A stretch of DNA of 64,000 nucleotides from Vibrio sp. DW001. Lineage in GTDB: Bacteria; Pseudomonadota; Gammaproteobacteria; Enterobacterales; Vibrionaceae. The translations under genes were made by a program, and so were the position numbers. The notes under the pieces are model-generated. The model was not told the DNA's origin, made no database searches, and saw only the letters and a list, made by a program, of their open reading frames with translations. The DNA is taken from the NCBI RefSeq assembly GCF_029016285.1, contig NZ_CP091976.1, forward strand, positions 1,488,001 to 1,552,000, in the 5' to 3' direction. Below are positions 1,910-38,588 of the stretch, in pieces (the stretch's first letter is position 1; every line of letters begins with the position of its first letter).

Positions 1910-2527
1910 GTGAATAAGTTTATGGCGGTGCAGAGCCATATAAAAAGGATAATTGAGTATGTTAACATGCGCCATTATCACATAAATCCAGATTTAACAG
2001 ACACTTCTATGAGACACATTCAAACGCAAATTCACCCTGATATTGATCACCTAGATAATAAAACGATATTTAAACGTGCAGCGGCTAGAGCGATTGTGCT
2101 TGATGGCGAAAATATCCTCATGCTTTATACCGAGCGATACCACGACTATACAATACCTGGTGGTGGTTTAGACGAAGGTGAAGATGTCATCTCTGGTATG
2201 GTTCGTGAGTTGCAGGAAGAGACTGGCGCCCAGAACATTCATAAAATTAAGCCGTATGGCATTTATGAAGAGTTTCGCCCTTGGTATAAAGACGATGCCG
2301 ATATAATGCATCAGATATCGTACTGCTACACCTGTAAAATTGATCGTGAGCTAGGTGAAACGGCCTTAGAAGCACATGAAGTAAATAATGGCATGGTGCC
2401 TATCTGGATTAACATCCACGAGGCCATTGCACACAACGAAGAAACCATAGCTAAAAACCCCAAGAAGGGCATGAGCATTGAGCGCGAGACGTATTTGCTT
2501 CATTTGATTGCGAAGGAAATGCTGTAA
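1910..2527 (+). CDS. Nudix hydrolase whose 3' end is supplied by the prophage attachment site
   Basis: The Nudix box is intact (PGGGLDEGEDVISGM followed by RELQEETGA, about residues 86-108), with the G-x5-E-x7-RE-x2-EE-x-G spacing that binds metal and hydrolyses nucleoside diphosphates linked to another group. Substrate unknown. The start is uncertain: GTG at 1910 gives 205 residues, but ATGs at 1922, 1967 and 2009 are in frame and none has a convincing ribosome-binding site. The last ~43 codons lie in attL, and a near-identical copy of the same 3' end sits at attR (38455-38588). The prophage therefore swapped the gene's tail without breaking it. Both differences between copies are silent (GCT/GCC and GCG/GCT, alanine). 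Confidence 0.85.
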   Translation: MNKFMAVQSHIKRIIEYVNMRHYHINPDLTDTSMRHIQTQIHPDIDHLDNKTIFKRAAARAIVLDGENILMLYTERYHDYTIPGGGLDEGEDVISGMVRELQEETGAQNIHKIKPYGIYEEFRPWYKDDADIMHQISYCYTCKIDRELGETALEAHEVNNGMVPIWINIHEAIAHNEETIAKNPKKGMSIERETYLLHLIAKEML

Positions 2528-2607: not shown

Positions 2608-3642
2608 TTATAGTCTAATTTGGTTAAGTGGGTTGTAGATAACGGCATCTTCAAGGTGATTCGGCGCGAAGTGAGCATAGCGCATGGTCATGCTAATTTC
2701 GGTATGGCCAAGGATGTTTTTTAACACAATGATGTTGCCGCCATTCATCATAAAATGACTGGCGAAAGTATGACGTAATGTGTGGGTACCTTGTCCTTTA
2801 GGCAAGTTTGGTAGGGCAAGAGAGAACCATTTGTGAGTCAGGCTATAGCTGCAACTAAAAATCTTGCCCGGATCTTCTTTTCTAATGTCGTTATAGAGCG
2901 TGTCTGAGATAGGAATGGTTCTATTTTTTTTGCCCTTGGTTTCTACAAAGGTAATTCGACACTTTGATACCTGAGAGCCCTTAAGGTTAAGAACCTCTCG
3001 AATTCTTGCGCCCGTTGCCAAGCAAACCATAAACACCAGTCGCAGTTCTTCACCCTTCTCACTTTTTAAAACGTAATGTAAGAGACGCTCAATCTCTTCC
3101 AGTTTGAGATAAACAATTTCTGTTTCACTTATTTTAAATTTGCGAATATCGGCAAGTGGGTTAGGCTGTTTCCATTCCTTAAGCCGAATGAGTTCATTGA
3201 ACATGGTTTTTAACCAAATGAGATCATGGTTATGCGTAGACAGCGCAATTGCTTCATGGTTATCTTTTCTTAACGTACTGCTGCCTTTGTAGGTTCGATT
3301 AGCGCGGTAGTGAGCGAACATCCTTTCATTGATATGGCTTGCAATAGGGTTATTGAGTTCCTCACAGACAATTTCCATTCTACGCATTGCCCGTTTACCA
3401 GAACGAGTATTCTTACCATGCAGCTGGTACCACAGTTCGATAAGGTGAAGTAACCTGCGGCTATCCGGTTTATCCCCTAACCATGGTTTATCGTTAATAC
3501 CTTTCATAGTGAACAATTCAAACGCCGCCGCTTCGCCTTTCGTCGCAAATTTCTTACGCACACGCTTACCGTTGCGCCCTATGGGGTAGCATTCGCAGAT
3601 CCAAGGCTTTTTGGTGTTGTCTTTTAGGTTTCTGATGGACAT
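2608..3642 (-). CDS. int: Phage integrase, P2/HP1-type tyrosine recombinase
   Basis: The 344-residue product catalyses site-specific integration and, with Cox, excision. The N terminus (MSIRNLKDNTKKPWICECYP, then GKRVRKKFATKGEA) is typical of P2-like integrases. All catalytic motifs are present: ARIREVL (Arg), ETKGKKN (Lys), HTLRHTF (His and Arg), LGHTEISMTMRYAHF (His and nucleophile Tyr). I use the ATG at 3642, preceded by GAGAGG five bases away; an upstream in-frame start at 3654 lacks this. It reads toward attL. A LexA-type site lies about 16-35 bp upstream of the start codon. Confidence 0.95.
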   Translation of the reverse strand: MSIRNLKDNTKKPWICECYPIGRNGKRVRKKFATKGEAAAFELFTMKGINDKPWLGDKPDSRRLLHLIELWYQLHGKNTRSGKRAMRRMEIVCEELNNPIASHINERMFAHYRANRTYKGSSTLRKDNHEAIALSTHNHDLIWLKTMFNELIRLKEWKQPNPLADIRKFKISETEIVYLKLEEIERLLHYVLKSEKGEELRLVFMVCLATGARIREVLNLKGSQVSKCRITFVETKGKKNRTIPISDTLYNDIRKEDPGKIFSCSYSLTHKWFSLALPNLPKGQGTHTLRHTFASHFMMNGGNIIVLKNILGHTEISMTMRYAHFAPNHLEDAVIYNPLNQIRL

Positions 3643-3657
3643 GGTACCTCTCAAAAG

Positions 3658-3677: not shown

Positions 3678-3840
3678 AAATGTTTTGAGATGTTTAACAA
3701 TGTTTGATATTGAGTTTGCGATATAGATAATTAGTCAATTTTGTAAATTATTGATTAATCAGTGTATACAACTCAGACTAAATACATATAGTCCAAGCAA
3801 CTATCGTTTGTATTTTTCAAGCATTTATCATTCTGAGCCT
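3678..3840. other. AT-rich spacer between int and the int remnant
   Basis: No ORF of useful length. Very AT-rich, so it may hold the int promoter and Cox or integrase sites. I could not assign any element with confidence. Confidence 0.4.
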
Positions 3841-4011
3841 GGTTGATTTACCAGAGTGAATACTTCCTCATTCAATTGATATCAAAGCTGGATAAGGTGA
3901 AGAAACTTGCGGCATTTCGGTTTACTCCTCAACCATGGTGTTTTGATGCTGTCCCTTAGGTTACTGATGGGTATAGAGTGTTAACAGGTAAAACTGTATG
4001 TATGAACAGTA
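3841..4011 (-). pseudogene. Degenerate, internally deleted copy of the int 5' region
   Basis: By eye, 3841-3942 aligns with int bases about 3388-3490: shared TTTACCAGA, then GATAAGGTGAAG, then a diverged CTTGCGG, then AACCATGGT. Bases 3943-4011 align with 3610-3677 (TTAGGTT-CTGATGG, then a CTGT-N8-ACAG box). About 120 bp of int between the two blocks is missing. No open frame remains. It looks like the remains of a related phage's int start plus promoter, left by recombination when the neighbouring cargo was acquired. Confidence 0.7.
3992..4011. promoter_or_regulatory. LexA-type box upstream of the ParB-like/Dam cargo
   Basis: AACTGT-ATGTATGA-ACAGTA keeps both CTGT and ACAG half-sites. It lies where the int LexA box lies relative to int, but in the int remnant, and now precedes the rightward cargo operon by about 135 bp (start at 4147). 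It may still bind LexA; whether it controls the cargo depends on the promoter position. Confidence 0.55.
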
Positions 4012-4146
4012 TAAATGCGTCGTAAATTTATAATGAACAAAGAAATTTGTTTCTCTCATCGAATAACGAGATATTTATTCTTAACAATCATAGCGATAGC
4101 GATTACATTATGCCTCAGTATTAATATTAATGGGTGTGATTGCAGT

Positions 4147-5682
4147 ATGGCTAGTGCTAATGATATCTGGTGGAACAAACGTTCACCAAGATCCGTTGAT
4201 TATTTAAAATTATGGAAAGATAACCCACGCTTCGATGGGGCTGAAAGCCACTTGAGAATTAAAGTTGCAGATTTTGCGGATGAAATTTTAACTGAGTCTA
4301 CAGAAAAGAAGCACTTTCAAGACCTTGTTAAATCGATAGTAAGTGATGGTTTTAAGACGTTTGATCCTATTGTTGTTTGGAAAGATGAATCTGACAGTCG
4401 ATACATAATAGCAGAGGGAAACCGTCGCGTATTAGCATTGAAGTTGTTGAGATCACCACATAAAGCTCCTAAAGAAATTAGGAAATTTATGCTTCAACAA
4501 GCATCAATGATAGACCGAAATACTATCGAAAAAATTCCTGTTGCGATAGCTCCTTCAAAAGAAGACACCATCTGGTATGTATTGGAGAGACACTCATCTG
4601 GTTCATCACAGTTCAGATGGCAACGTCTACAGCAGCAAAGATTCATTCAAAGTTTATATGATGATTATAATGAAAATGTGGACTTAGTTGTTGAAACTAC
4701 GAACTTTACTCGTTCTGATGTATTGACTGCACTGCGATATGTACAGTTTAGAGACCATGCAACTAGAAAAGAAGTATTGCAGTTGATGACTCCAGAGGAA
4801 AAAGAATTAATCTATAGTAGACGTATATCAATGACCGTTCTTGAACGCTGGTTTGGTAGTGAGGATGTCAGGCAAGCGTGGGGTATAGAGTTTCATGAAA
4901 CTCAAGTAAAAATTAAATCTATTGAGTCTAGTTTCTTGCATGCTTATGCGCATTTTTTGAAGTTTATGTTTAACATAGTCCCCAATGATTTACAGTTTGT
5001 GGTTAACACTCGTTCTATACCAAGCCATAATATAAAAATATTACAAGCATTGCCTGAAGTAGAGTTTTTGGAAGATTGCGTCGCAATTCCTTTCTCGTCT
5101 GGAAAAAGTACAGAAGAAACAAGTTCATCTGGTGAAGGAAATGGCGAAAAAAACGAGAGTAACCAGAGCGAACTTGGGCAAGGTGAAAAAGTTGAAGAGC
5201 CCCAACCTGACAGAGTTCCGCTGAACACTAATAACAGAAGAAGAGTTATTCCTTTGGGATCTACAATCAAGGTAAAAAGTCACAAACTTAATGCTTTGTT
5301 TAGAGAAATGAAAAGGGTACCGGTATATCTATATACTAATGTCTCTGCAGCTACTCTTCGTGTTATTCTTGATTTATCAGTTGATAGCTATATCAAAAAA
5401 ACAGGGCTAGAAGGGAATTTGGCTAAAACGTATAAGAAAGATTACAATCATACTGTCTTGTTGCAACGTCTAACTTACCTTAAGAACGAACATATTCAAG
5501 ATGGTCAGGCGAAAAAAGTAATAGCTAAATTGCTACAACCTCAGAATGAACATAGTCTAGATACATTAAATAGCTTTGTTCATGGTCATGAAACTCATAA
5601 AATTGATCATAGATTTATTAATGGATTTTGGGATATGCTTACGCCCCTGTTAAAAGTCCTGATTGATTTGAAGGAAAGGTAA
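4147..5682 (+). CDS. ParB/Srx N-terminal-domain protein of a methylase-linked cargo operon
   Basis: From the ATG at 4147 the product has about 511 residues. Residues ~15-100 match a ParB/Srx-type domain (KLWKDNPRF, then FDPIVVWKD, then the signature AEGNRRVLALKLL near 89-101). ParB folds bind DNA or nucleotides and some act as nucleases. A low-complexity, Ser/Glu/Asn-rich hinge (~318-365) leads to a helical C-terminal domain with LNSFVHG near its end. The frame stays open back to 4015 and would add 44 residues with a strong membrane helix. I consider that part less likely because it abuts the int remnant and a ParB-like domain should be cytosolic, but neither start has a good ribosome-binding site. 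Its stop overlaps the methylase start (TAATG), so the two are translationally coupled. Function is not recognised; DNA modification or defence is inferred. Confidence 0.7.
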   Translation: MASANDIWWNKRSPRSVDYLKLWKDNPRFDGAESHLRIKVADFADEILTESTEKKHFQDLVKSIVSDGFKTFDPIVVWKDESDSRYIIAEGNRRVLALKLLRSPHKAPKEIRKFMLQQASMIDRNTIEKIPVAIAPSKEDTIWYVLERHSSGSSQFRWQRLQQQRFIQSLYDDYNENVDLVVETTNFTRSDVLTALRYVQFRDHATRKEVLQLMTPEEKELIYSRRISMTVLERWFGSEDVRQAWGIEFHETQVKIKSIESSFLHAYAHFLKFMFNIVPNDLQFVVNTRSIPSHNIKILQALPEVEFLEDCVAIPFSSGKSTEETSSSGEGNGEKNESNQSELGQGEKVEEPQPDRVPLNTNNRRRVIPLGSTIKVKSHKLNALFREMKRVPVYLYTNVSAATLRVILDLSVDSYIKKTGLEGNLAKTYKKDYNHTVLLQRLTYLKNEHIQDGQAKKVIAKLLQPQNEHSLDTLNSFVHGHETHKIDHRFINGFWDMLTPLLKVLIDLKER

Positions 5683-6563
5683 TGTTCTATTCACCGCTAA
5701 GGTATCCAGGTGGCAAGTCTAAACTTACAGCATATGTTTTGGAAACGTTGAAGCTCAATGAGCTTGAAGGAGGGACATATGTAGAGCCATTTGCAGGTGG
5801 GTGTGCTATAGCTTGGTATTTACTCTTAGAGGGACACGTAAGCAAGGTATATATTAACGACCTAAATCCGTCCATACATGCGTTTTGGTACTCCGTTCTC
5901 AATAAAACAGATGAGCTTTGCGAGCTAATAGAATCCACACCTGTAACTATTGATGAGTGGCATAAACAAAAATTGGTACAATCTCAAGAGCGACCAAACA
6001 TATTGAGTCTAGGTTTTTCCACCTTCTTTTTAAATCGAACAAACCGTTCAGGAATCATAAAAGCGGGTGTCATTGGTGGATTAAAACAAAACGGGAACTA
6101 CTTGTTGGACTGTCGATATCAAAAAGGTAACTTAATCAATAAAATCAGAGCGATTGCTAAAAGGCGAGACGATATTGTTTTGACTAAGGTAGACGCAGCT
6201 GATTTTTTAGATGAGTATTTGCCAGATATTGAAGGAAAATGTCTAATCAATATAGATCCTCCTTACTATGTCAAAGGTAAGGGTTTATATCAGAACTTCT
6301 TTGAACACGATGATCATTTTAGGCTTTATGAAAGTGTAAAACGAATTCAGTCCCCCTGGATTGTTACCTATGACGACACCCCTGAAATAATTGGAATCTA
6401 TTCTGAATTCAAACCACAATCATTTGGTCTAACATATACTGCACAGGTTAAGCGAAAGGGTTCAGAAGTTATTATTCATAACCCTAATATTAAGCGAGTT
6501 CAATTTAAGCCAGATATAACGTTTGCTGAGTTAAAGTTGCTCGCAAAACAAGCTAATATGTAA
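5682..6563 (+). CDS. D12-class (Dam-like) DNA N6-adenine methyltransferase
   Basis: The 293-residue protein has the Dam/D12 order: RYPGGKSKL at 7-15, AdoMet motif VEPFAGG at 34-40, and catalytic DPPY at 192-195 followed by the aromatic KGKGLYQNFF stretch. It should transfer methyl groups to adenine in a short target that the sequence does not reveal. The ATG shares one base with the stop of the ParB-like gene, so the pair is one operon. Host Dam proteins are of similar size, but the linkage to a ParB-domain partner is unusual. It may act in modification, protection from a nuclease, or epigenetic control. Confidence 0.92.
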   Translation: MFYSPLRYPGGKSKLTAYVLETLKLNELEGGTYVEPFAGGCAIAWYLLLEGHVSKVYINDLNPSIHAFWYSVLNKTDELCELIESTPVTIDEWHKQKLVQSQERPNILSLGFSTFFLNRTNRSGIIKAGVIGGLKQNGNYLLDCRYQKGNLINKIRAIAKRRDDIVLTKVDAADFLDEYLPDIEGKCLINIDPPYYVKGKGLYQNFFEHDDHFRLYESVKRIQSPWIVTYDDTPEIIGIYSEFKPQSFGLTYTAQVKRKGSEVIIHNPNIKRVQFKPDITFAELKLLAKQANM

Positions 6564-6569
6564 ATCAAA

Positions 6570-6596
6570 AATGCCCTTAGCGGGCATTGTTTTTTT
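6570..6596. terminator. Terminator between convergent cargo operons
   Basis: AATGCCC (6570-6576) pairs with GGGCATT (6582-6588), loop TTAGC, followed by G and T7. It ends the rightward methylase transcript. The stop codon of the leftward ATPase gene lies in the loop and first stem, and A's on the left also give a short U-run for that strand. Confidence 0.8.
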
Positions 6597-8154
6597 CAAT
6601 GGTTTTATTATATATATTTTCAAATTTATCAAGAAATTTTAGTTTGTCTTGAGGGTTTTTTTCTAGAAAATATCTATATAAATGGCATCCTTGTAGTCCC
6701 CAAACTTTACTTTGTAGTTGTTGATTATACCATTCCTTCGCTTTCTTCCGGTCTGTATTTATTTCTTGAACAGTGAAATCTTTGAAACAAAGTCTTTTGG
6801 AATAATCATCGTGAACTTTTGTCCAAAATAAGTCTGCATCGAGCAATGACTCCAAAAAGTTTGCCACCATACTCTCAGGATTTAAATTACCAGGTAAACA
6901 TATATAATTTTTTAGCTTACTTTTATCTACTTTTGCTCTTGTATCTCCATCCAATATGACAATGGAGTTAGGGAACATAAAGCTAGGGACTTTTCTTTGA
7001 GCCAATTGAACATAGTTGTCACATCCTAGTTTTATATCAGAGAATTCCAAGTTTGGAAATTTCCTCCCTAATAGAGCTTTTGTAAAATGAATACATTCAG
7101 GGTCTTCGGTATAAACAGATATTTTCTTAGGTTTAACAATAATTCCTAACGATACATTTAGATTGCTTAATATTCGTTCGTAATCTGGGGATTCTTCCAC
7201 AGTAACGAAACCATCCAATTTTTTAAGGTATACAGTGTTAAAGTGCTTATCTCGACCTCTTTCCTTTTTTAATATAGATAATTTTTCAAGTAATTGAAGT
7301 GAATGAGTAGTGGCTATTAATTGGACGCTAGCCTCTTTACATAATTTACTAAGAAGCTCAAAAAGTTTTATTTGTGAACCTGGGTATAAAGTCGCGTCGA
7401 TTTCATCAATTGCTAAGATTCCACCTGAATAATTCTCAGGGTATTTTTTCTTTAATCGTTTGAATGAGATAATAGCTAATAATATCTTACTAAGGTTATC
7501 TTGACCTGCTGAATTTGAGTGCCAATCATAATGGTCAGTAGTTACACCTAAGGTGTTTTTATTGGTACTTTCCAAGTAGTCTACAGATGCAATATCATCT
7601 GCACTTATCAAGATTTTGTTATAATACTCAGAGAACCAAATGTTTTCTTCTACTGATAGTTCTGTGTTTTTACTTTTTATTCTACCTGCTTCAGCTATTG
7701 GGATCAGTCGTTTTAAACTGAGATATATTACAGGAAGCTGTATATAACCACTTCCAGCATCTCTTTTACCTTTTTGCCAAAAGCGTATTGAATCTTGTCC
7801 CTTTAATTTTCTTGGAATGCTTTCAATAGTAAACGCTCCATTTTCATTTAGATCCGGGTGTAAATCTCTGTCTTTAAAGTAAAGAGTCCATTCATGTTCA
7901 CCGGAAATATCCAAATTAGGTGATAAACGAAATTTGTCTTGAAATGCAGAACGAAAAGACCCTCCGGTAAGAGGAACCTCATCTGAAAATAAATGTTCTT
8001 TTGATGGTATTGTAAAAGTTTGGCTGAGTATTCCTAATAGCGTACTTTTTTGAGTTCCGTTTTGACCTGCAATTAACGTTATTTGTTCGCCAAGAGAAAA
8101 GCGTACATCACGAAAACCGCGAAATCTTTCAATATGAGCTTTATCAATAATCAT
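6577..8154 (-). CDS. OLD-like ABC-class ATPase with C-terminal TOPRIM-like domain
   Basis: 525 residues. The N-terminal SMC/ABC-type ATPase shows IERFRGFRDVRF, P-loop GQNGTQKST (30-38), signature-like SAGQDN (215-220), Walker B ILAIDEID (246-253) and H-loop ATTHS (281-285). The P-loop has Gln where most have Gly before the Lys, so activity should not be taken for granted. The C-terminal third shows VYTEDPE with Glu350 and ILDGDT with DGD at 402-404, which fits the Glu and DxD of a TOPRIM nuclease centre. This layout matches OLD-family nucleases (P2 Old, GajA, the retron-Eco8 effector), which block phages. Same strand as cI and the membrane gene, so possibly made in the lysogen. Abortive or exclusion defence is inference. 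Confidence 0.8.
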   Translation of the reverse strand: MIIDKAHIERFRGFRDVRFSLGEQITLIAGQNGTQKSTLLGILSQTFTIPSKEHLFSDEVPLTGGSFRSAFQDKFRLSPNLDISGEHEWTLYFKDRDLHPDLNENGAFTIESIPRKLKGQDSIRFWQKGKRDAGSGYIQLPVIYLSLKRLIPIAEAGRIKSKNTELSVEENIWFSEYYNKILISADDIASVDYLESTNKNTLGVTTDHYDWHSNSAGQDNLSKILLAIISFKRLKKKYPENYSGGILAIDEIDATLYPGSQIKLFELLSKLCKEASVQLIATTHSLQLLEKLSILKKERGRDKHFNTVYLKKLDGFVTVEESPDYERILSNLNVSLGIIVKPKKISVYTEDPECIHFTKALLGRKFPNLEFSDIKLGCDNYVQLAQRKVPSFMFPNSIVILDGDTRAKVDKSKLKNYICLPGNLNPESMVANFLESLLDADLFWTKVHDDYSKRLCFKDFTVQEINTDRKKAKEWYNQQLQSKVWGLQGCHLYRYFLEKNPQDKLKFLDKFENIYNKTIEKNNAR

Positions 8155-8320
8155 TGTGAACCTAGCTAGAGTATTATAAATGTATTTTTTATTTTAAGCG
8201 TACATAATAGTGATTAATGTATTGATATAAATAGATAAAACAAAATTTTCAGAGAAAAAGATCAGATATGTGAATGAACGCATAAAAACTTGTAACTAGG
8301 GTTATTCATGATAAAACGAT

Positions 8321-8896
8321 TTATGATTTAGTTGTAAAAGACTTCCATGAAGATGATTTACAAGTGAGTAATAATATAATCGCATATATTCCAGTAAGAG
8401 CCACTGCAATAATTAATTTTTCGTTTGAGCCTAAATATTCGATGTCGCCCATAAATGCTAGCAAATAATTTAGTATCAAACCGATCCAAACAAAAATAGT
8501 GAAATCACTAAGTGCGATAGCTGTTTTACTTACAGAGAACTTACGTGAATTTAACCAACACGTTTTATGTTGCAACGTATCTTTAGCTCTAAAAAGTTCA
8601 CCGACGTTAGCTTTAACTTCAAGCTCAGTAACCATGGATTCCCAATGTTCTTGCCAGTATTTACTTCCTCGGTTAACAAGACTCCAGCAAAGTGAACAGA
8701 TAAGTCCAAAACAAGCAACAACAATAGCAAGGTTAGGTCTAGGGGTGTCTGCCGACATTAATGCGCCATATCCTAATCCAGCAGTCGCAATAAACCCCCA
8801 GAAAAACAATGAGCGTTTCCAATATAAATCTATTTCAAAATTACGAGTCGCTATAGCGATTTTATAAGCTTCAAAATGAGGGTCGTGTTTTGCCAT
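8321..8896 (-). CDS. Four-helix inner membrane protein in the repressor operon (RipA-like)
   Basis: 191 residues from the ATG at 8896. Hydrophobic helices lie at about 29-47, 55-73, 130-150 and 159-176. The loop after helix 2 carries VNRGSKYWQEHWESM and the N terminus FEIDLYWKRSLFFWGFIA, a pattern I associate with RipA-family octameric membrane proteins, though without a search this is only a resemblance. The cI stop and this ATG are one base apart (TGATATG), so the genes are cotranscribed and the protein should be made in the lysogen. K139-type phages carry lysogenic-conversion or exclusion genes at this spot. Superinfection exclusion, or a membrane effector working with the ATPase next door, is inference. 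Confidence 0.65.
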   Translation of the reverse strand: MAKHDPHFEAYKIAIATRNFEIDLYWKRSLFFWGFIATAGLGYGALMSADTPRPNLAIVVACFGLICSLCWSLVNRGSKYWQEHWESMVTELEVKANVGELFRAKDTLQHKTCWLNSRKFSVSKTAIALSDFTIFVWIGLILNYLLAFMGDIEYLGSNEKLIIAVALTGIYAIILLLTCKSSSWKSFTTKS

Positions 8897-8897
8897 A

Positions 8898-9545
8898 TCA
8901 CCCAACCCTCATCCCAACAACAACCTTCCCAACAACCTCAATATCCCCATCAACAACCTCGATAGTCGAACCATCAAAGCTTATGGCCAACTTGCCAGGC
9001 AATCTCTGAATTTGGTTAATGGAGTATCGGCCATCGATGCGGATAAGGTAATTACCACTTACAGGGTCGGTTTGGTTTCTATCAATTAGCGAAATACCTT
9101 CATTAGTCTCTATCTCAACTAAATCCGCGTTCTCCAACTTAAAGCCTCTAATTCTGCGGCTTGGGTAAGGTATCTCACCTGTCGGTAACATCTCACCATT
9201 TGTCAGGCAAAAGCTTTTAAGAATGATTGTTTTTAGCTGCTCATTCGCAGTAGAAGATTCAGGTTCAATGCTCGGCAGGGTAGGCGTCTTTTTTTCGGCG
9301 GCAAGGTGCCATTGTTCTGGCTTTAATGCCAGTTCTTCAATCGGGATACCCGAGGCCAAATGCAGGCGAACCATCAATTCATGTGACGTTCTGTTGTGGG
9401 TGTTCCAAGTGCTAAAAGTTGCCTTTGGCATTTCAAGAAGCTCTGACATCTCCAAAAGAGTTTTGCACTTCGTCAGTTGTTTGAGATTCTCAGTGAAATC
9501 TACGCCACTCAGATAATCAAATGCAGGGATAGTATTATTTGGCAT
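8898..9545 (-). CDS. cI: Prophage CI-type repressor (P2/K139 family), apparently non-cleavable
   Basis: 215 residues. The N-terminal ~75 hold a phage CI helix-turn-helix (LLEMSELLEMPKATFSTWNT, then NRTSHELMVRLHLASGIP). The C terminus has the S24/LexA-like fold (SGNYLIRIDGRYSINQIQRL, ending VVGKVVVG) but lacks the GxSM serine, and the usual Lys in the VKRL position reads INQI. It should not self-cleave on RecA activation, so lifting repression needs another route. It keeps the lysogen silent by binding between 9546 and 9689. Homologous to the chromosomal regulator at 40878-41543. Confidence 0.9.
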   Translation of the reverse strand: MPNNTIPAFDYLSGVDFTENLKQLTKCKTLLEMSELLEMPKATFSTWNTHNRTSHELMVRLHLASGIPIEELALKPEQWHLAAEKKTPTLPSIEPESSTANEQLKTIILKSFCLTNGEMLPTGEIPYPSRRIRGFKLENADLVEIETNEGISLIDRNQTDPVSGNYLIRIDGRYSINQIQRLPGKLAISFDGSTIEVVDGDIEVVGKVVVGMRVG

Positions 9546-11181: not shown

Positions 11182-11405
11182 TGTTCGCGGCGGTTTCTCT
11201 TTGCCCAATGGGCGGTATCGTTCGAGATGAAGAAACGATGGAAGCATTAACCGAAGAAGTGGGTAATTTTGAATCGGAGAACGAAGCGATTGCCCACGCT
11301 TGCCTCAACCTGCAATGTGACCATTTACACAATGGTGTCATTAGCCGAGGGAAAGGCAAGGGTGGTTATATGGTGGTGACTACGCAGGAGTTAGAGGAAG
11401 TGTAG
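11178..11405 (+). CDS. Small early phage protein, function unknown
   Basis: 75 residues; the start could be either of two adjacent ATGs (11178 or 11181). Acidic centre, Gly/Lys-rich C-terminal hairpin (SRGKGKGGYMVVT). Its stop overlaps the GTG start of the replication gene (TAGTG). No family recognised. Confidence 0.6.
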   Translation: MMFAAVSLCPMGGIVRDEETMEALTEEVGNFESENEAIAHACLNLQCDHLHNGVISRGKGKGGYMVVTTQELEEV

Positions 11406-13438
11406 TGCAAGAAAAACAGATACTTTATGTCGCTGGGGCCGTAATGCCCCACGACAAAATCAGAAAAAACATCGCCAGCTCTCATGCTGGTTTTTTAGGT
11501 TCCAAAATCTACACCGACCAAGAACAACAACTTTTGGATTCCGGTGTTGTTAAGAAAATCCCAATTTATGATCGCGTGCTTGGCCGAAAGGACAAACACA
11601 TTGTCGAAATTGAAAAAGAGACCGATTACTACCGCGCACACCATGCCAAAAAAGCCGAGCAACGCGAGGGAAGGCCTAGGCTTGTCCAAGGGCGCAAAAG
11701 TCCGACAGGCCGATATTACATTGATAACTTCGATTTCTATAGGCGCTATTTCGTCTCTAAACCCGTGTGTCAGCACGTTCAGACCATTCTTGCTAGCCAT
11801 GAAGCGCACGACAACTTTGATTCAATCTACGCAAGCTGCGAGCGAAATAAGGCGGGCATCTATCGCAGTCTTGAAGAGCGAACCTATAAAATTGAGCCAA
11901 TAATTTCACCTGTGTCGCTTCAATTGCAAAAAAAAGATTGGTCTGGGCAGTATCGAGCTCAAGTTGTCACTCAAATTCCATCAAGTAGCCCGCCGCCACC
12001 TATTGAAGGTGAACGATATACCGACAGCCTTAAGGCGAGAGCCGTTTCTAAAATTTTTGAATCTGGCGCCTATGTATCAACCTGCCATGAAGGCTTTACC
12101 ACATTCATCACACTCACGTTCGACCAGGAGCAGCGCAAAAAATTATTTGGTGGCTACAAGGAATCGTTTAGTGAATTCGAAAACTACTACGAAGAGTTCT
12201 TTTTAAAAGATGATTTTCTGTGTGAACTAAAAAATTACAAAGCATTTACGCCACTAGAATACGAACGAAATATGGGTGGAGTGGTGAGAGATATTGCTGG
12301 TCCTTATACCACGCTGCCTATTCGAAAAAGAATGCCCAAACTTATGAATGCATCGGGTGCAATCGCAGGCGATTTTTGTTTGCTTTCCCAAAAGCCAGAA
12401 ACTGAGTTTAAACGGACCAAAACCAATGAAACAACTATAGGCAAAGAAGTCGGTCGTTTTTTAGATGGCTGTAAAAAAATGTACCACCGTGGATGGAAAG
12501 CGGGTGATGAAAAGGTAGATGGCCATAACACCAAACCTTCTGAGTTTGGGCCAACGCGGGACAAAGCCGATTTCCATAGTATTTGGGTGGCGGAGTGTCC
12601 GCCGAATCAAGATGGAGAACCTAACCCGCATGTTCATATTTTATTGAAATGGACAGTTGAACCTCATTTGTTTAAAGCCTGGGCAAAACGGCTTGAAGGA
12701 ATTTGGGGTCATGGTATGGCCCATATTGAACGCATTCGAGAACCCAAAGCGGCCAGTTCTTACTTAATCAAAGCGTTGGGTTATGCCACGAAGGGTGAAA
12801 ATGCAGATCAGGGTTTGATAAGGGGCAATCGATACAATATTGCTCAGTGTTCACGCGCCCCAGAGTGGGAAACACTGGCGTCGTTCGAAGTCGGAAATAT
12901 AACGGCGGTTATCAAAGAACTTGGCTACAAGTTAGAGCAATGGAAAAGGCCGATAGAACGGCAGATAGCCAAGATGCATTATAAGAAATCCATTCTCAAA
13001 AAAGATCACAATATCGCTAAGAAATCGGGCAAACCGGAGGAGTACACAAACAAGCTATACCAGAAAATCATTCGATTAGAAAAGTCGGCTATCAAAGCCA
13101 AGGAAACCATGAAATCTCGCGGTGTTCATGCGTCTACCAAAAACCGTTTTTCAGTTTCGTTCGATGGGGAAGAAGCCGAGAAAAAGCTCGACGATTTTTT
13201 AATGTGGGCAGCTGGGGCTCGTGGTTGGTCGATGGAATGCAAAGATATCGATTTATCAGATCTAAAGGAATGGGCAGATGAAAACTATCACCATGAGTTT
13301 ATCCGATTCCAGGATAAACGCGCCTACTGGAAGGCCGTGATCGAAGCGGGCCCGCTAAGGGAAGAGCCTGATGAAGATGAGGTTTTATATTGGCGGAATA
13401 TTCAATATGAATATACGGAAGGTAGGGCTTGCGCCTAA
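11405..13438 (+). CDS. HUH-type rolling-circle replication initiator
   Basis: 677 residues, the size of P2-like GpA/Rep proteins. The HUH metal motif is at about 404-412 (EPNPHVHILLKW), and the tyrosine helix follows near 450-460 (SSYLIKALGYATKG) with two Tyr seven positions apart. Such enzymes nick the plus origin and covalently hold the 5' end. The GTG start overlaps the previous stop, so translation is coupled. The origin is often inside the initiator gene but I did not locate a nick site. Last gene of the early operon. Confidence 0.88.
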   Translation: MQEKQILYVAGAVMPHDKIRKNIASSHAGFLGSKIYTDQEQQLLDSGVVKKIPIYDRVLGRKDKHIVEIEKETDYYRAHHAKKAEQREGRPRLVQGRKSPTGRYYIDNFDFYRRYFVSKPVCQHVQTILASHEAHDNFDSIYASCERNKAGIYRSLEERTYKIEPIISPVSLQLQKKDWSGQYRAQVVTQIPSSSPPPPIEGERYTDSLKARAVSKIFESGAYVSTCHEGFTTFITLTFDQEQRKKLFGGYKESFSEFENYYEEFFLKDDFLCELKNYKAFTPLEYERNMGGVVRDIAGPYTTLPIRKRMPKLMNASGAIAGDFCLLSQKPETEFKRTKTNETTIGKEVGRFLDGCKKMYHRGWKAGDEKVDGHNTKPSEFGPTRDKADFHSIWVAECPPNQDGEPNPHVHILLKWTVEPHLFKAWAKRLEGIWGHGMAHIERIREPKAASSYLIKALGYATKGENADQGLIRGNRYNIAQCSRAPEWETLASFEVGNITAVIKELGYKLEQWKRPIERQIAKMHYKKSILKKDHNIAKKSGKPEEYTNKLYQKIIRLEKSAIKAKETMKSRGVHASTKNRFSVSFDGEEAEKKLDDFLMWAAGARGWSMECKDIDLSDLKEWADENYHHEFIRFQDKRAYWKAVIEAGPLREEPDEDEVLYWRNIQYEYTEGRACA

Positions 13439-34821: not shown

Positions 34822-35523
34822 CTATTTTAGATGATCGAGTAACTTAAATGCGTATTCTTCAATGATAGCATTTGACCAAACATCCTTCATTTTGACAGTT
34901 TTAGCCGCATTGGAGTATTTGTCTTTATTACTGACAATATCTTCTAATGAGATTATCAAATCATTAATAATTGTGGTTTCACCATAATGGTTTCCAGCTA
35001 ACTTAAATGCAGCTTGAGGGATATGTCCCCACTCTTTGTACATGGCTAATATATCAAAAATGTCTTTGTATGGAGCCGTGAATTTTCTATCGGAGTTTGC
35101 TAGTAACTTTGTATAAAAACAAGATGTTTGATCTAGGAAAGGTACGGGGAATCTATTCGTGTCATATTCGTAAGTTAGATCATAGTCATCGCAACTAAGA
35201 AACTCCAACTTGATGTTAGTGCCATTAAGAGTGATGAATGTTCGAACGGCGTCTCTATCGGCCCTAATCTCGCGAGCATAAGTAAACTCCTTTTTGACTA
35301 GTTCACCAAGAGATATGTTGGTTACATGCTCTCTTATTGCTCTATAAGATGCTTTGTTTGGGCAGAGAAAATCAATATCTATCGATTCTCGATACTCATC
35401 AAGTTCTAAGGCGATGCGAGTACCGCCTCCGAACAAAATATTATTTTCACAAAAAAAGTCAGCGTTAAAATTCTCTAACGCTGACTCTATAATTTGATGA
35501 TGTGGGATTTTGTATTTTGCCAT
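34822..35523 (-). CDS. Nucleotidyltransferase of AbiEii/AbiGii toxin type
   Basis: 233 residues from ATG 35523, which follows the partner stop by one base (TGATATG). The NTase signature is FGGGTRIALELDEYRESIDI followed by DF (Asp pair), then IKLEFLSCDD. AbiEii toxins are type IV toxin partners that transfer nucleotides to tRNA or other targets and cause abortive infection. The gene before it is the presumed antitoxin. Location in phage cargo fits an anti-phage or maintenance role; the partner is not an obvious AbiEi. Confidence 0.8.
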   Translation of the reverse strand: MAKYKIPHHQIIESALENFNADFFCENNILFGGGTRIALELDEYRESIDIDFLCPNKASYRAIREHVTNISLGELVKKEFTYAREIRADRDAVRTFITLNGTNIKLEFLSCDDYDLTYEYDTNRFPVPFLDQTSCFYTKLLANSDRKFTAPYKDIFDILAMYKEWGHIPQAAFKLAGNHYGETTIINDLIISLEDIVSNKDKYSNAAKTVKMKDVWSNAIIEEYAFKLLDHLK

Positions 35524-35524
35524 A

Positions 35525-35770
35525 TCAATGGCTTGCTGGCATGAATACACCATTACCATATTCCTTGGTAAGCATTTCGATAAGTTGTTTTTCTTTTTTA
35601 CCTAGTTTAGTTGTATCAACATAAGCCCAGCGCTTTTCATAAAGTTCAAAAGCAGTTTTAGGTGCGATATATTTAACGTGCATATCCCACAAAAGCTGAT
35701 TTAGCTCGTGATATTTAGTACGATTGATATTGCCCATGTCTATCACATTCTCTGTTTTGGGTTTGTACAT
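35525..35770 (-). CDS. Partner (putative antitoxin) of the AbiEii-type nucleotidyltransferase
   Basis: Up to 81 residues; starts at 35770 or 35737 (MGNINRTKYHELNQLL) are both possible. Helical; WAYVDTTKLGKKEKQLIEML looks like a DNA-binding or regulatory segment. Shorter than AbiEi antitoxins (about 190-270 residues), so it may be a different antitoxin. Coupled to the NTase, with a perfect palindrome 50 bp upstream that may be its operator. Confidence 0.65.
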   Translation of the reverse strand: MYKPKTENVIDMGNINRTKYHELNQLLWDMHVKYIAPKTAFELYEKRWAYVDTTKLGKKEKQLIEMLTKEYGNGVFMPASH

Positions 35771-36257: not shown

Positions 36258-37340
36258 CTATAATTCAATGTAACTAGCAAATATATCTTTTAATACTCTG
36301 AGACGGATATCCGATGAAGAAAGAACTATCCCCTGTGTATAATATTTCTCTAGTTTCGCATAATCAGACGAAGGAACGTAAGCAGAAATTCTATCAGCGG
36401 AATAATTGAGCATTAGGTCATTGTCTACGTCTAATCCTTCGCATTCATACATTGGAAGCTTTTGAAGATATCCGAGCAAACTATGTTTATCAGGTGATAT
36501 TTCTGAATTATTTATAAGCTCTATTTCAGTAAATGAAACTGCCACTTCGACATCTAAACCATCCTCGTCTTCAGTAAGAATATCAGTACCAATATTCTCA
36601 ATTAAAATCTCAAAGAAGTTACGACAAGCCTGCTCAATATGGTTTTGTACAATTATTGCGTTCGTTGCCTCTTCTCCTACTTCATGAGTATGTAAGTTCT
36701 CAACCATAGTTTCTAATACAGAAGTAGAGCCAATAAGCTTCTCGATAGCATTTGACATGCTTTCTACTCGATCTTGCTCTTTTCTACGTTCTAGAAAGGA
36801 GTAGAACATTCCCGCCCATTGCTTTTTTAAGTGTTGTTCAATATCTGTAAATGAAGTGTACTTTTCTAGTCCATTATTCCTTTGGGAACGTGTAACCTGT
36901 TGAATAAAACTAAAAATAAAAGAAGCGTCATCTTGTTTATCTATTGCTGGGTAGTTTATTTTCTTTGCAAAGTCATCCCCATGTAATTGGGCATTCTCTC
37001 TATATAGATATTGAGCAGAAAGAACCTCATTCTTTACAAATGCAAAAATTGGCAATTTCAACTTTCTAGCTTCTAGATACTCAGCTTGGGTAATCGACTC
37101 TCCGGAACCTCCTTTGAGCTTTCCCCCAAACCTTCCAGATATAATCAATATGAATAAGTCACAGTGTGATACTTCTTTTACACAAGCTTGATGTGTATGC
37201 TCATCAACGTCATAATAGACACCACTATATTCACTCAATATAGGCTGAAACCCATACCCAGAAATAAATCTTTCTAGTTGAGCTCGCTCTTCCTGCAAGT
37301 CATAGCATGTGGAACTAACAAAAACCTTCGGTATAGCCAT
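36258..37340 (-). CDS. DUF4062-domain protein, candidate defence protein
   Basis: 360 residues from ATG 37340 (AAAGG upstream). N-terminal DUF4062 signature PKVFVSSTCYDLQEERAQLE, then FILIISGRFGG and SITQAEYLEARKLKLPIFAF. DUF4062 is a TIR-like Rossmann domain found in NLR-like and other immunity proteins. The C-terminal ~200 residues are helical and then acidic (TDILTEDEDGLDVEV), with no known effector. Defence is inferred from the domain and cargo location. Confidence 0.75.
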   Translation of the reverse strand: MAIPKVFVSSTCYDLQEERAQLERFISGYGFQPILSEYSGVYYDVDEHTHQACVKEVSHCDLFILIISGRFGGKLKGGSGESITQAEYLEARKLKLPIFAFVKNEVLSAQYLYRENAQLHGDDFAKKINYPAIDKQDDASFIFSFIQQVTRSQRNNGLEKYTSFTDIEQHLKKQWAGMFYSFLERRKEQDRVESMSNAIEKLIGSTSVLETMVENLHTHEVGEEATNAIIVQNHIEQACRNFFEILIENIGTDILTEDEDGLDVEVAVSFTEIELINNSEISPDKHSLLGYLQKLPMYECEGLDVDNDLMLNYSADRISAYVPSSDYAKLEKYYTQGIVLSSSDIRLRVLKDIFASYIEL

Positions 37341-37440
37341 CAATTTACCTTTATTTTTAATTATATACTGACGATATAAAACGATATGCACCGATACTAA
37401 CCGATTGACAACCTAATACCTTGATCGTAATCTAAAAACG

Positions 37441-37688
37441 CACTGGCAAAATCCAGTGTCAGGATTCGAACCCTGCATTTTATTCACGGCACATCGATGC
37501 CAGCTTTTGCTGGTCTTTTTATATGTGCGGCTTCGGCACACCTAAACATGGTGAATTTGTCTAAACAAACGACAATAAACTGAATTATGGTGGGCTGGGC
37601 GAGGCAGCTTAGGCTGGCCGTGTCGTGAATGCGGTAGTTCGAACCTTGTTCAGTTCACCACCCTTTGATTCGAACCTCTGAGTGGTGA
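37441..37688 (+). ncRNA. Structured leader resembling C4 antisense RNA ahead of the BRO-N gene
   Basis: Hairpins: CACTGG/CCAGTG (37441-37458), CAGG/CCTG around an ATTCGAAC loop (37460-37475), a GCCAGC-TTTT-GCTGGT hairpin with a T-run (37499-37520) enclosed by GCACAT/ATGTGC, and TCACCAC/GTGGTGA (37656-37688). TTCGAAC appears in three loops or loop-like places. CGTGAAT (37624-37630) is complementary to ATTCACG in the ribosome-binding region of the BRO-N gene (37703-37713). C4 RNA represses antirepressor genes in P1/P22-like phages by such pairing. Assignment is by structure and context only. Confidence 0.55.
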
Positions 37689-37718: not shown

Positions 37719-38357
37719 ATGACTTCAGCACTAACATTTCAAAATACACACTTCGATGTGATCGAACAAAAGAAACGTACTTGGTTAACCGCAACTCAAA
37801 TTAGCGCAGCTTTGGGCTATAAAACTGATGACGCGGTTAGTCGGATATACAGACGTAATTCAGATGAGTTTTCTAACGAGATGACTCAGACGGTCAAATT
37901 GACCGCCTCAGGAAACTACCAAAAAACAGTCCGTATTTTCTCCCTTCGTGGTGCACACCTAATCGCCATGTTCAGCAGAACGCCAATAGCCAAAGAGTTC
38001 AGAAAATGGGTACTCGATGTACTTGACCAAGAAAGTCGACCAGCGGCCATTGTACCCATAATAAAAAGACCACAATACAAAGCCGTCTGGCCAACCCATT
38101 TTCGATCCAATTGGAACGGCGCCTACTTCCCCTATAATGGCGAAATCATAGGTAATATTTGCTTTGAAATTGCCCCAATAGGAAAAACGGATAAATACAG
38201 TGCCATATTCCGGTTCTCTAACGAAGAACACCAGGTCATTTTAGTGGGGGAACGGCTAGGGGACTTTGGTTACTTCGAATCCACGTTATTAGATGAAGTA
38301 TGGGAGTTCGCCATCAAGTTTTGTGGCAGGTGCAATAGTAAGTGTGCGCATATATAA
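37719..38357 (+). CDS. BRO-N domain protein, antirepressor-like
   Basis: 212 residues. The BRO-N domain is at 1-110 (NTHFDVIEQKKRTWLTATQI, SAALGYKTDDAVSRIY, then RIFSLRGAHLIAMFSRTPIA, KEFRKWVLDVLDQE). Such domains bind DNA and occur in phage antirepressors. The C-terminal half (WPTHFRSNWNGAYFPYNGE) is not recognised. CGGAGG lies 7 bases before the ATG and within the presumed antisense target. Last phage gene before attR. Confidence 0.85.
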   Translation: MTSALTFQNTHFDVIEQKKRTWLTATQISAALGYKTDDAVSRIYRRNSDEFSNEMTQTVKLTASGNYQKTVRIFSLRGAHLIAMFSRTPIAKEFRKWVLDVLDQESRPAAIVPIIKRPQYKAVWPTHFRSNWNGAYFPYNGEIIGNICFEIAPIGKTDKYSAIFRFSNEEHQVILVGERLGDFGYFESTLLDEVWEFAIKFCGRCNSKCAHI

Positions 38358-38454: not shown

Positions 38455-38588
38455 TGCCTATCTGGATTAACATCCACGAGGCCATTGCACACAACGAAGA
38501 AACCATAGCCAAAAACCCCAAGAAGGGCATGAGCATTGAGCGCGAGACGTATTTGCTTCATTTGATTGCTAAGGAAATGCTGTAAGGA
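38455..38588 (+). repeat. attR: right attachment repeat, displaced 3' end of the Nudix gene
   Basis: 132 of 134 bases equal attL. It holds the last 43 codons and stop of the Nudix gene without its body. An ATG at 38454 is accidental, made by the phage-side sequence, and could give a 43-residue fragment that I do not consider a gene. Confidence 0.95.

Follow-up and report, generated by a model that had tools for sequence, protein, structure and literature searches.

A block of cargo genes between the integrase and the cI-type repressor of a P2-like prophage in Vibrio sp. DW001 may constitute a methylation-guarded, dual-effector phage-defence module. The prophage lies in a stretch of 64,000 nucleotides, hereafter the window (contig NZ_CP091976.1, positions 1,488,001 to 1,552,000), of a genome of two contigs and 5.46 Mb. 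We give a probability of about 0.6 to the reading that the known system PD-Lambda-5, represented here by a ParB-like protein and a D12-class adenine methyltransferase (methylase), is extended in this block by an OLD-like ATPase-TOPRIM nuclease. These three genes probably form one module, because the OLD-like ATPase travels with the same methylase in very different bacteria. A preliminary description, made from the nucleotide sequence alone, had placed the three genes and a fourth, for a membrane protein, in the left arm of such a prophage and had regarded them as defence-type cargo. All four genes are real and lie where it put them (Table 1), and the defence assignment is borne out, the ParB-like/D12 pair being the tested system PD-Lambda-5. 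However, the four genes are two units and not one: the ParB/D12/ATPase triad stands apart from the membrane gene, which is paired with cI.

The linkage was assessed with an alignment of 20 ATPases (including three phage relatives) out of 1592 found, of which 120 were listed. The scan gave 74 loci in 84,980 species genomes and 52 loci in viral contigs, and neighbouring genes were identified with hidden Markov models built from the matches. Two genome loci (L118 and L119) had no ATPase open reading frame (ORF) above 100 bits and were dropped, which left 72. Loci with a full flank, that is, at least 1.5 kb on both sides, were separated from those with a short one (11 of 72 genome and 7 of 52 viral loci). 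A methylase lies within 5 kb of the ATPase in all 61 full-flank genome loci (within 2 kb in 58 and within 500 bp in 44), and within 500 bp in all 45 full-flank viral loci, one of which has only a fragment. Over all loci with an ATPase ORF the counts are 70/72 and 47/52, and the seven loci lacking a methylase (L051, L120, L136, L142, L146, L153 and L162) all end at most 66 bases from the gene on one side. Most of the full-flank methylases (103 of 106) score above 250 bits. The weak ones are those of L101 (204 bits), L112 (split, 173 bits) and L172 (an adjoining 63-aa piece of 97 bits and a further match of 171 bits farther off). The hosts include Bacteroidota, Pseudomonadota, Bacillota, Chloroflexota, Deferribacterota, Planctomycetota and the archaeon Methanococcoides. 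With A for ATPase, M for methylase and P for the ParB-like gene, the orders A-M, P-M-A, A-P-M, P-A-M and M-A were seen, besides the convergent A><M-P of the window, and orientations vary. A ParB-like gene is present within 2 kb of the ATPase in 34 of 61 genome loci and in one of 45 viral loci with full flanks. The loci are partly redundant, and because the ATPase served as the anchor of the scan, loci with ParB only are under-represented.

Several controls bear on this association. In the genome loci, the 138 kb nearest to the ATPase (up to 1 kb away) hold 53 methylase matches and the 423 kb at 4-8 kb hold none; the viral loci gave 47 in 99 kb versus one in 293 kb. As a background, none of the 63 viral loci of the membrane-protein family 8xMP (see below) had a methylase match above 80 bits, and one had a match of 44 bits. 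In two loci with ATPase and methylase and no ParB-like gene, the methylase belongs to the family of PD-Lambda-5 component B (408.8 and 377.3 bits). A limit of 95% identity reduced a set of 121 methylases longer than 250 aa and scoring above 250 bits to 96, of which 92 come from ATPase loci and four from loci without an intact ATPase. All 96 match the component B model (E <= 1e-50, PADLOC) and likewise the Type II methylase model PDLC03358, and the DPPY motif is present in every one. The distances of ATPases and methylases are correlated (r=0.56, for 89 of the 96 methylases) versus a maximum of 0.13 in 1000 permutations, a correlation to which common descent contributes. A tree of these 96 methylases requires 14 changes of the partner labels A, AP and P versus 34.9 with shuffled labels, and for A and AP its well-supported branches force at least 8-9 changes. 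It therefore seems that the ParB-like gene was repeatedly gained and lost next to a methylase that persisted. A two-gene form is found in E. coli 042 (L259, 5069-7781), where an OLD-like ATPase and a DNA adenine methylase lie between two integrase genes. This stretch is matched over at least 80% of its length in 85 of 5426 complete E. coli genomes; a diverged E. coli query matched 126 genomes, none of them over 80% of the query.

The partners of the methylase appear to be exchangeable. Among 296 Vibrionaceae genomes, the one in question included, the ATPase was found in 5, the ParB-like protein (PDLC03995, one match being weak) in 6 and the methylase in 9; the methylase is present in 5/5 genomes with the ATPase and in 6/6 with the ParB-like protein. 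When 394 genomes of the order were searched with the methylase as anchor, 13 places in 11 genomes were obtained. Within a flank of about 1.5 kb, eight of them have a ParB-like gene, three the ATPase (two have both), three a HerA-type or HerA-associated gene, and one no clear partner. In this sample OLD is thus a minority partner of the methylase (3/13 places), yet the methylase is near every OLD. The HerA variant around the same methylase family was seen in L038 (10022-14684), L052 (8001-14131), L256, L257, L258 and L246. It comprises an unknown protein of 451-491 aa, a HerA-type ATPase (Pfam DUF87, 48.2 bits in L038) or both, and in L038 and L052 the OLD-like ATPase is present as well. The HerA context was assigned by blastp in L256 (80% to the unknown protein of L052) and L257 (40-43% to HerA-type proteins), and by eye in L258. 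The methylase looks like a hub, with the ParB protein with its HEPN-like end and the OLD nuclease as optional effectors.

The ParB-like and D12 genes, on the same strand with a one-base overlap, match the PADLOC models of PD-Lambda-5 nearly over the full length: component A with 615.3 bits (E 2.5e-185, profile positions 1-502 of 503) and component B with 395.8 bits (E 2.6e-119). The Type II methylase model also matches the window methylase, with 375.8 bits. According to Vassallo et al. (2022, PMC9519451), PD-Lambda-5 was found by functional selection, the E. coli system is experimentally anti-phage, and it appears to its authors to be a compacted prophage version of a restriction-modification (RM) plus Abi system. 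In V. europaeus, a survey places PD-Lambda-5 in prophages and in other islands (PMC12824646). The preliminary description had recognised no named system in the combination, which must be corrected for the ParB+D12 pair; because this pair is PD-Lambda-5, described before, that half of the finding is already known. PADLOC models two components, whereas the window adds the OLD-like ATPase-TOPRIM protein as a third conserved partner. The word ParB does not occur in the main text of the PD-Lambda-5 paper (PMC9519451), and the label used here comes from weak profile matches and from the fold.

By fold, the ParB-like protein resembles KorB/ParB over residues 11-301 and may resemble Csm6-HEPN/HEPN-MNT over residues 375-511. 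Its profile found ParB (4umk) in the PDB with an E of 0.0095, and nothing credible was found there by single sequence; Pfam gave no family common to the 46 relatives. Residues N26, R28, GNRR91-94, K99, W158 and R405 are invariant in 46/46 relatives. The canonical HEPN motif is Rx4-6H. It is absent from the C-terminus of the window protein, where no R stands 4-6 residues before H479 and the invariant R405 is 74 residues upstream. A chromosome-partitioning ParB is not favoured: there is no parA among the eight scanned window genes, and the C-terminal part does not align to ParB structures. As a lead only, the PADLOC model PDLC04607 (PDC-M38A) matches both the N-terminal part of the window ParB-like protein and the C-terminal part of a relative's ATPase; no ParB-ATPase fusion was found among the ORFs of L001-L173. 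Two side observations concern the gene itself. The open frame preceding the likely start (4015-4146, +) would encode a hydrophobic, signal-like stretch and is probably not translated. The annotation of phage ValB1MD-2 (L001, 3132-4684) splits the ParB-like gene into two ORFs of different frame, and it is one ORF in the 99.9% identical prophage of L037.

The third member has an AlphaFold2 (AF2) model with a pLDDT of 94.2, whose Foldseek matches include retron Eco8, GajA and TsOLD, with OLD-type proteins among the top matches. G30, N32, K36, S215, G217, D219, N220, D250 and H284 are invariant in 65/65 ATPases and E251 is conserved in at least 90%; we take these residues to be parts of the Walker A, signature, Walker B and H-loop motifs. 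Also invariant in 65/65 are E350, D402 and D404, the E and DxD of a TOPRIM domain, each just past a predicted strand, and residues 239-422 match the PADLOC model ATPase-Toprim_I-B (66.1 bits). The TOPRIM assignment is based on these motifs, this one PADLOC model and the Foldseek matches. No specific PADLOC model matched the gene: the best GajA model reached 49.2 bits among the 25 of 104 PADLOC matches listed, and AriA, with 61.9 bits, is one among many generic ATPase matches. In a second look with VIA at residues 1-336, OLD and GajA were not among the 50 matches listed. Single-protein scans of viral contigs with the ATPase or the ParB-like protein found nothing. Two suggestions of the preliminary description gain support: that the ATPase, a predicted nuclease, may be an effector, and that the methylase may mark self DNA.

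The mechanism that we propose as the most likely is as follows. The methylase would mark host and prophage DNA at its motif. Incoming DNA would be monitored by the OLD-like ATPase together with the ParB-like protein, the latter through an NTPase/DNA-loading N-terminal part and a HEPN-like C-terminal part. A missing mark, or a phage activity disturbing the complex, would then release both effectors, OLD acting as a nuclease and the ParB protein through its HEPN-like domain, perhaps with an abortive outcome for the cell. The OLD-like nuclease would be held in check by the methylase, and the ParB-HEPN-like protein would be a second reader and effector. In this way the prophage may exclude rivals, its own DNA already being marked.

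The main rival, which we consider rather improbable, is that PD-Lambda-5 is accompanied by a guard: instead of reading methylation, OLD would sense phage anti-restriction factors and respond to a blocked methylase/ParB arm by killing the cell, in the manner of PARIS, which guards restriction. OLD-type ATPases have been proposed as back-up effectors beside BREX and related systems (PMC12839542), and the trigger of PARIS is an anti-restriction protein (PMC9122126). However, in 44 of the 45 full-flank viral loci, whose other neighbours were not systematically identified, OLD adjoins the methylase and no ParB-like gene is present, and for this reason a direct OLD-methylase relation fits better than the guarding of another arm. 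Much less probable, and strongly disfavoured, are two independent defence genes sharing one slot, namely PD-Lambda-5 and a stand-alone OLD nuclease. The convergent orientation with a hairpin between would suit such an arrangement, as would the fact that ParB+methylase and OLD+methylase each occur alone, but a methylase of this family is near OLD in every full-flank locus, in several gene orders and across phyla.

Least probable of all, and rejected here, is a four-gene system of ParB, methylase, ATPase and membrane protein in which the last, a member of the 8xMP family, would be a membrane effector: 8xMP does not track the triad. The genes are adjacent in the window (8xMP and ATPase on the same strand, 166 bases apart), and in the viral locus L159 8xMP lies 2.2 kb from the ATPase, but this is the only one of 124 ATPase loci with 8xMP within 8 kb. 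Moreover, 8xMP is missing from ValB1MD-2, which does have the triad and cI, and the cI-8xMP pair accompanies different cargo in L042 and five additional viral contigs. The membrane gene therefore cannot be kept in the system to which the preliminary description had assigned it, since it follows cI in related prophages with different cargo; of the four genes, ParB, methylase and ATPase co-occur elsewhere.

The 8xMP gene starts one base past the cI stop (junction TGATATG) and is probably translationally coupled to it. The pair is found in L012, L013 and L042, which have cox and CII-like genes in common with the window prophage; identity to the window proteins is 59-63% for 8xMP and 33-37% for cI. 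It is also found, at about 29% identity, in viral contigs L231 and L234-L237, which are alike, and a cI model places cI directly upstream of 8xMP in 7 of 63 viral 8xMP loci, including L183 and L184, the contigs of L012 and L013. In L042 the slot from integrase to 8xMP (3737-8410) holds NsnA, NsnB and NsnC (398.7, 342.6 and 295.6 bits, PADLOC) and a cytosine methylase beside the kept cI-8xMP pair. The slot is thus swappable while cI-8xMP stays; those of L012 and L013 look like that of L042, the one scanned. Some relatives of this Pfam PF24838 family are named "RipA family octameric membrane protein" in source labels, but the window member adjoins a phage cI. A limited literature search found no tested function for phage 8xMP members, comparison with solved structures by sequence and by profile gave no credible match, and tblastn found none in phage records. 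The protein is perhaps a separate, cI-coupled superinfection-exclusion protein.

An exact 55-bp repeat joins the two ends of the element (38455-38509 for the right copy), so the prophage spans about 36 kb. High similarity continues to about 2530, and the left copy lies inside the 3' end of an ORF (1910-2527) labelled NUDIX-like by reading of the sequence. The prophage carries portal, terminase, scaffold, major head, tail sheath, tape-measure and baseplate genes, and among phage records the closest one that shares this block, ValB1MD-2, is assigned to Peduoviridae; for these reasons it is considered P2-like. The G+C content is 0.353 over the cargo (4147-8154) versus 0.447 from cI to rep and 0.453 in the structural genes. 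At the right end, an AbiEii-type nucleotidyltransferase gene (34822-35770, -; PADLOC AbiEii, 270.7 bits), with a small overlapping upstream ORF (35525-35770), is a probable second defence cargo of the same prophage. The low-G+C right cargo also includes a DUF4062 protein (36258-37391, -; 79.3 bits). A Bro-N domain gene (37719-38357, +) and the two RNAs upstream of it, isrK (37440-37519) and C4 antisense (37583-37665), together look like a C4/antirepressor immunity module within the prophage. The product of 11405-13438 (+), which matches phrog_38601 (416.9 bits, listed as of unknown function) and weakly Pfam REP_ORF2-G2P, is probably a replication protein.

Table 1. Features of the prophage left arm in the window (window coordinates)
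Feature	Position	Strand	Basis and remarks
Probable left attachment-site repeat	2397..2451		Exact 55-bp copy at the right end
Phage integrase	2608..3654	-	Pfam Int_N 108.4 bits, Phage_integrase 79.9 bits; left edge of cargo slot
PD-Lambda-5 component A, a ParB-like protein whose C-terminal part may have a HEPN-like fold	4147..5682	+	PADLOC PDLC03995; ORF open from 4015
D12-class adenine-N6 DNA methyltransferase, PD-Lambda-5 component B	5682..6563	+	PADLOC PDLC04018; Pfam MethyltransfD12 66.7 bits
Hairpin flanked by T-runs, perhaps a terminator shared by the convergent genes	6570..6588		One of 8 terminator-like sites in the region versus 3.5 expected
OLD-like ABC ATPase-TOPRIM protein	6577..8154	-	phrog_3940 377.8 bits; Pfam AAA_15 63.2 bits; third conserved module member
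8xMP-family membrane protein, separate cargo	8321..8896	-	Pfam PF24838 115.1 bits (cut-off 30)
cI-type repressor	8898..9545	-	Pfam Phage_CI_repr 62.9 bits, Phage_CI_C 33.4 bits

Comparison with the known OLD classes may place the ATPase further. A review gives the following contexts: none for class 1 (P2 Old), a helicase for class 2 (Gabija GajA), a retron for class 3 (Eco8) and a split PARIS pair for class 4; the word methyltransferase has 0 occurrences in its text (PMC10568477). Like these classes, the window protein has an N-terminal ABC ATPase and a C-terminal TOPRIM domain with invariant E and DxD. Unlike the isolated gene of class 1, its relatives have the methylase within 5 kb in 61/61 full-flank genome loci. 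Unlike class 2, its window neighbours are the D12 methylase and 8xMP, with no UvrD/PcrA/Rep-like helicase adjoining, and unlike class 3, there is no reverse transcriptase among the identified window neighbours. In PARIS the pair is split into AriA and AriB, whereas ATPase and TOPRIM are in a single gene here. Type II RM systems share a methylase family, PADLOC modelling this one also as Type II, and the link to a putative nuclease. However, the partner is an ATP-binding OLD and/or a ParB-HEPN-like protein, not a recognised site-specific endonuclease. We tentatively propose, as an idea still more doubtful than probable, a fifth kind of OLD protein: a nuclease partnered with a DNA adenine methylase, an OLD enzyme that would tell self from non-self by methylation. 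ParB-HEPN and, in other lineages, HerA-type ATPases would be exchangeable second arms around the methylase hub, and PD-Lambda-5 would be one of several configurations. An OLD-methylase system was not found in the literature searched, the coverage of which was partial, and a 2020 survey of ABC-ATPase conflict systems may already describe the pairing.

How OLD-type nucleases tell foreign DNA from their own is an open question, stated for Gabija in the abstract of a preprint (PMC12407980). With an OLD family of wide phylogenetic range that is linked to a single methylase family, this question becomes testable: is the methylase the antidote? Since the OLD+methylase form stands beside an integrase in E. 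coli, it could be tested in a laboratory strain. In addition, the annotation of PD-Lambda-5 may change, towards a hub methylase with swappable effectors.

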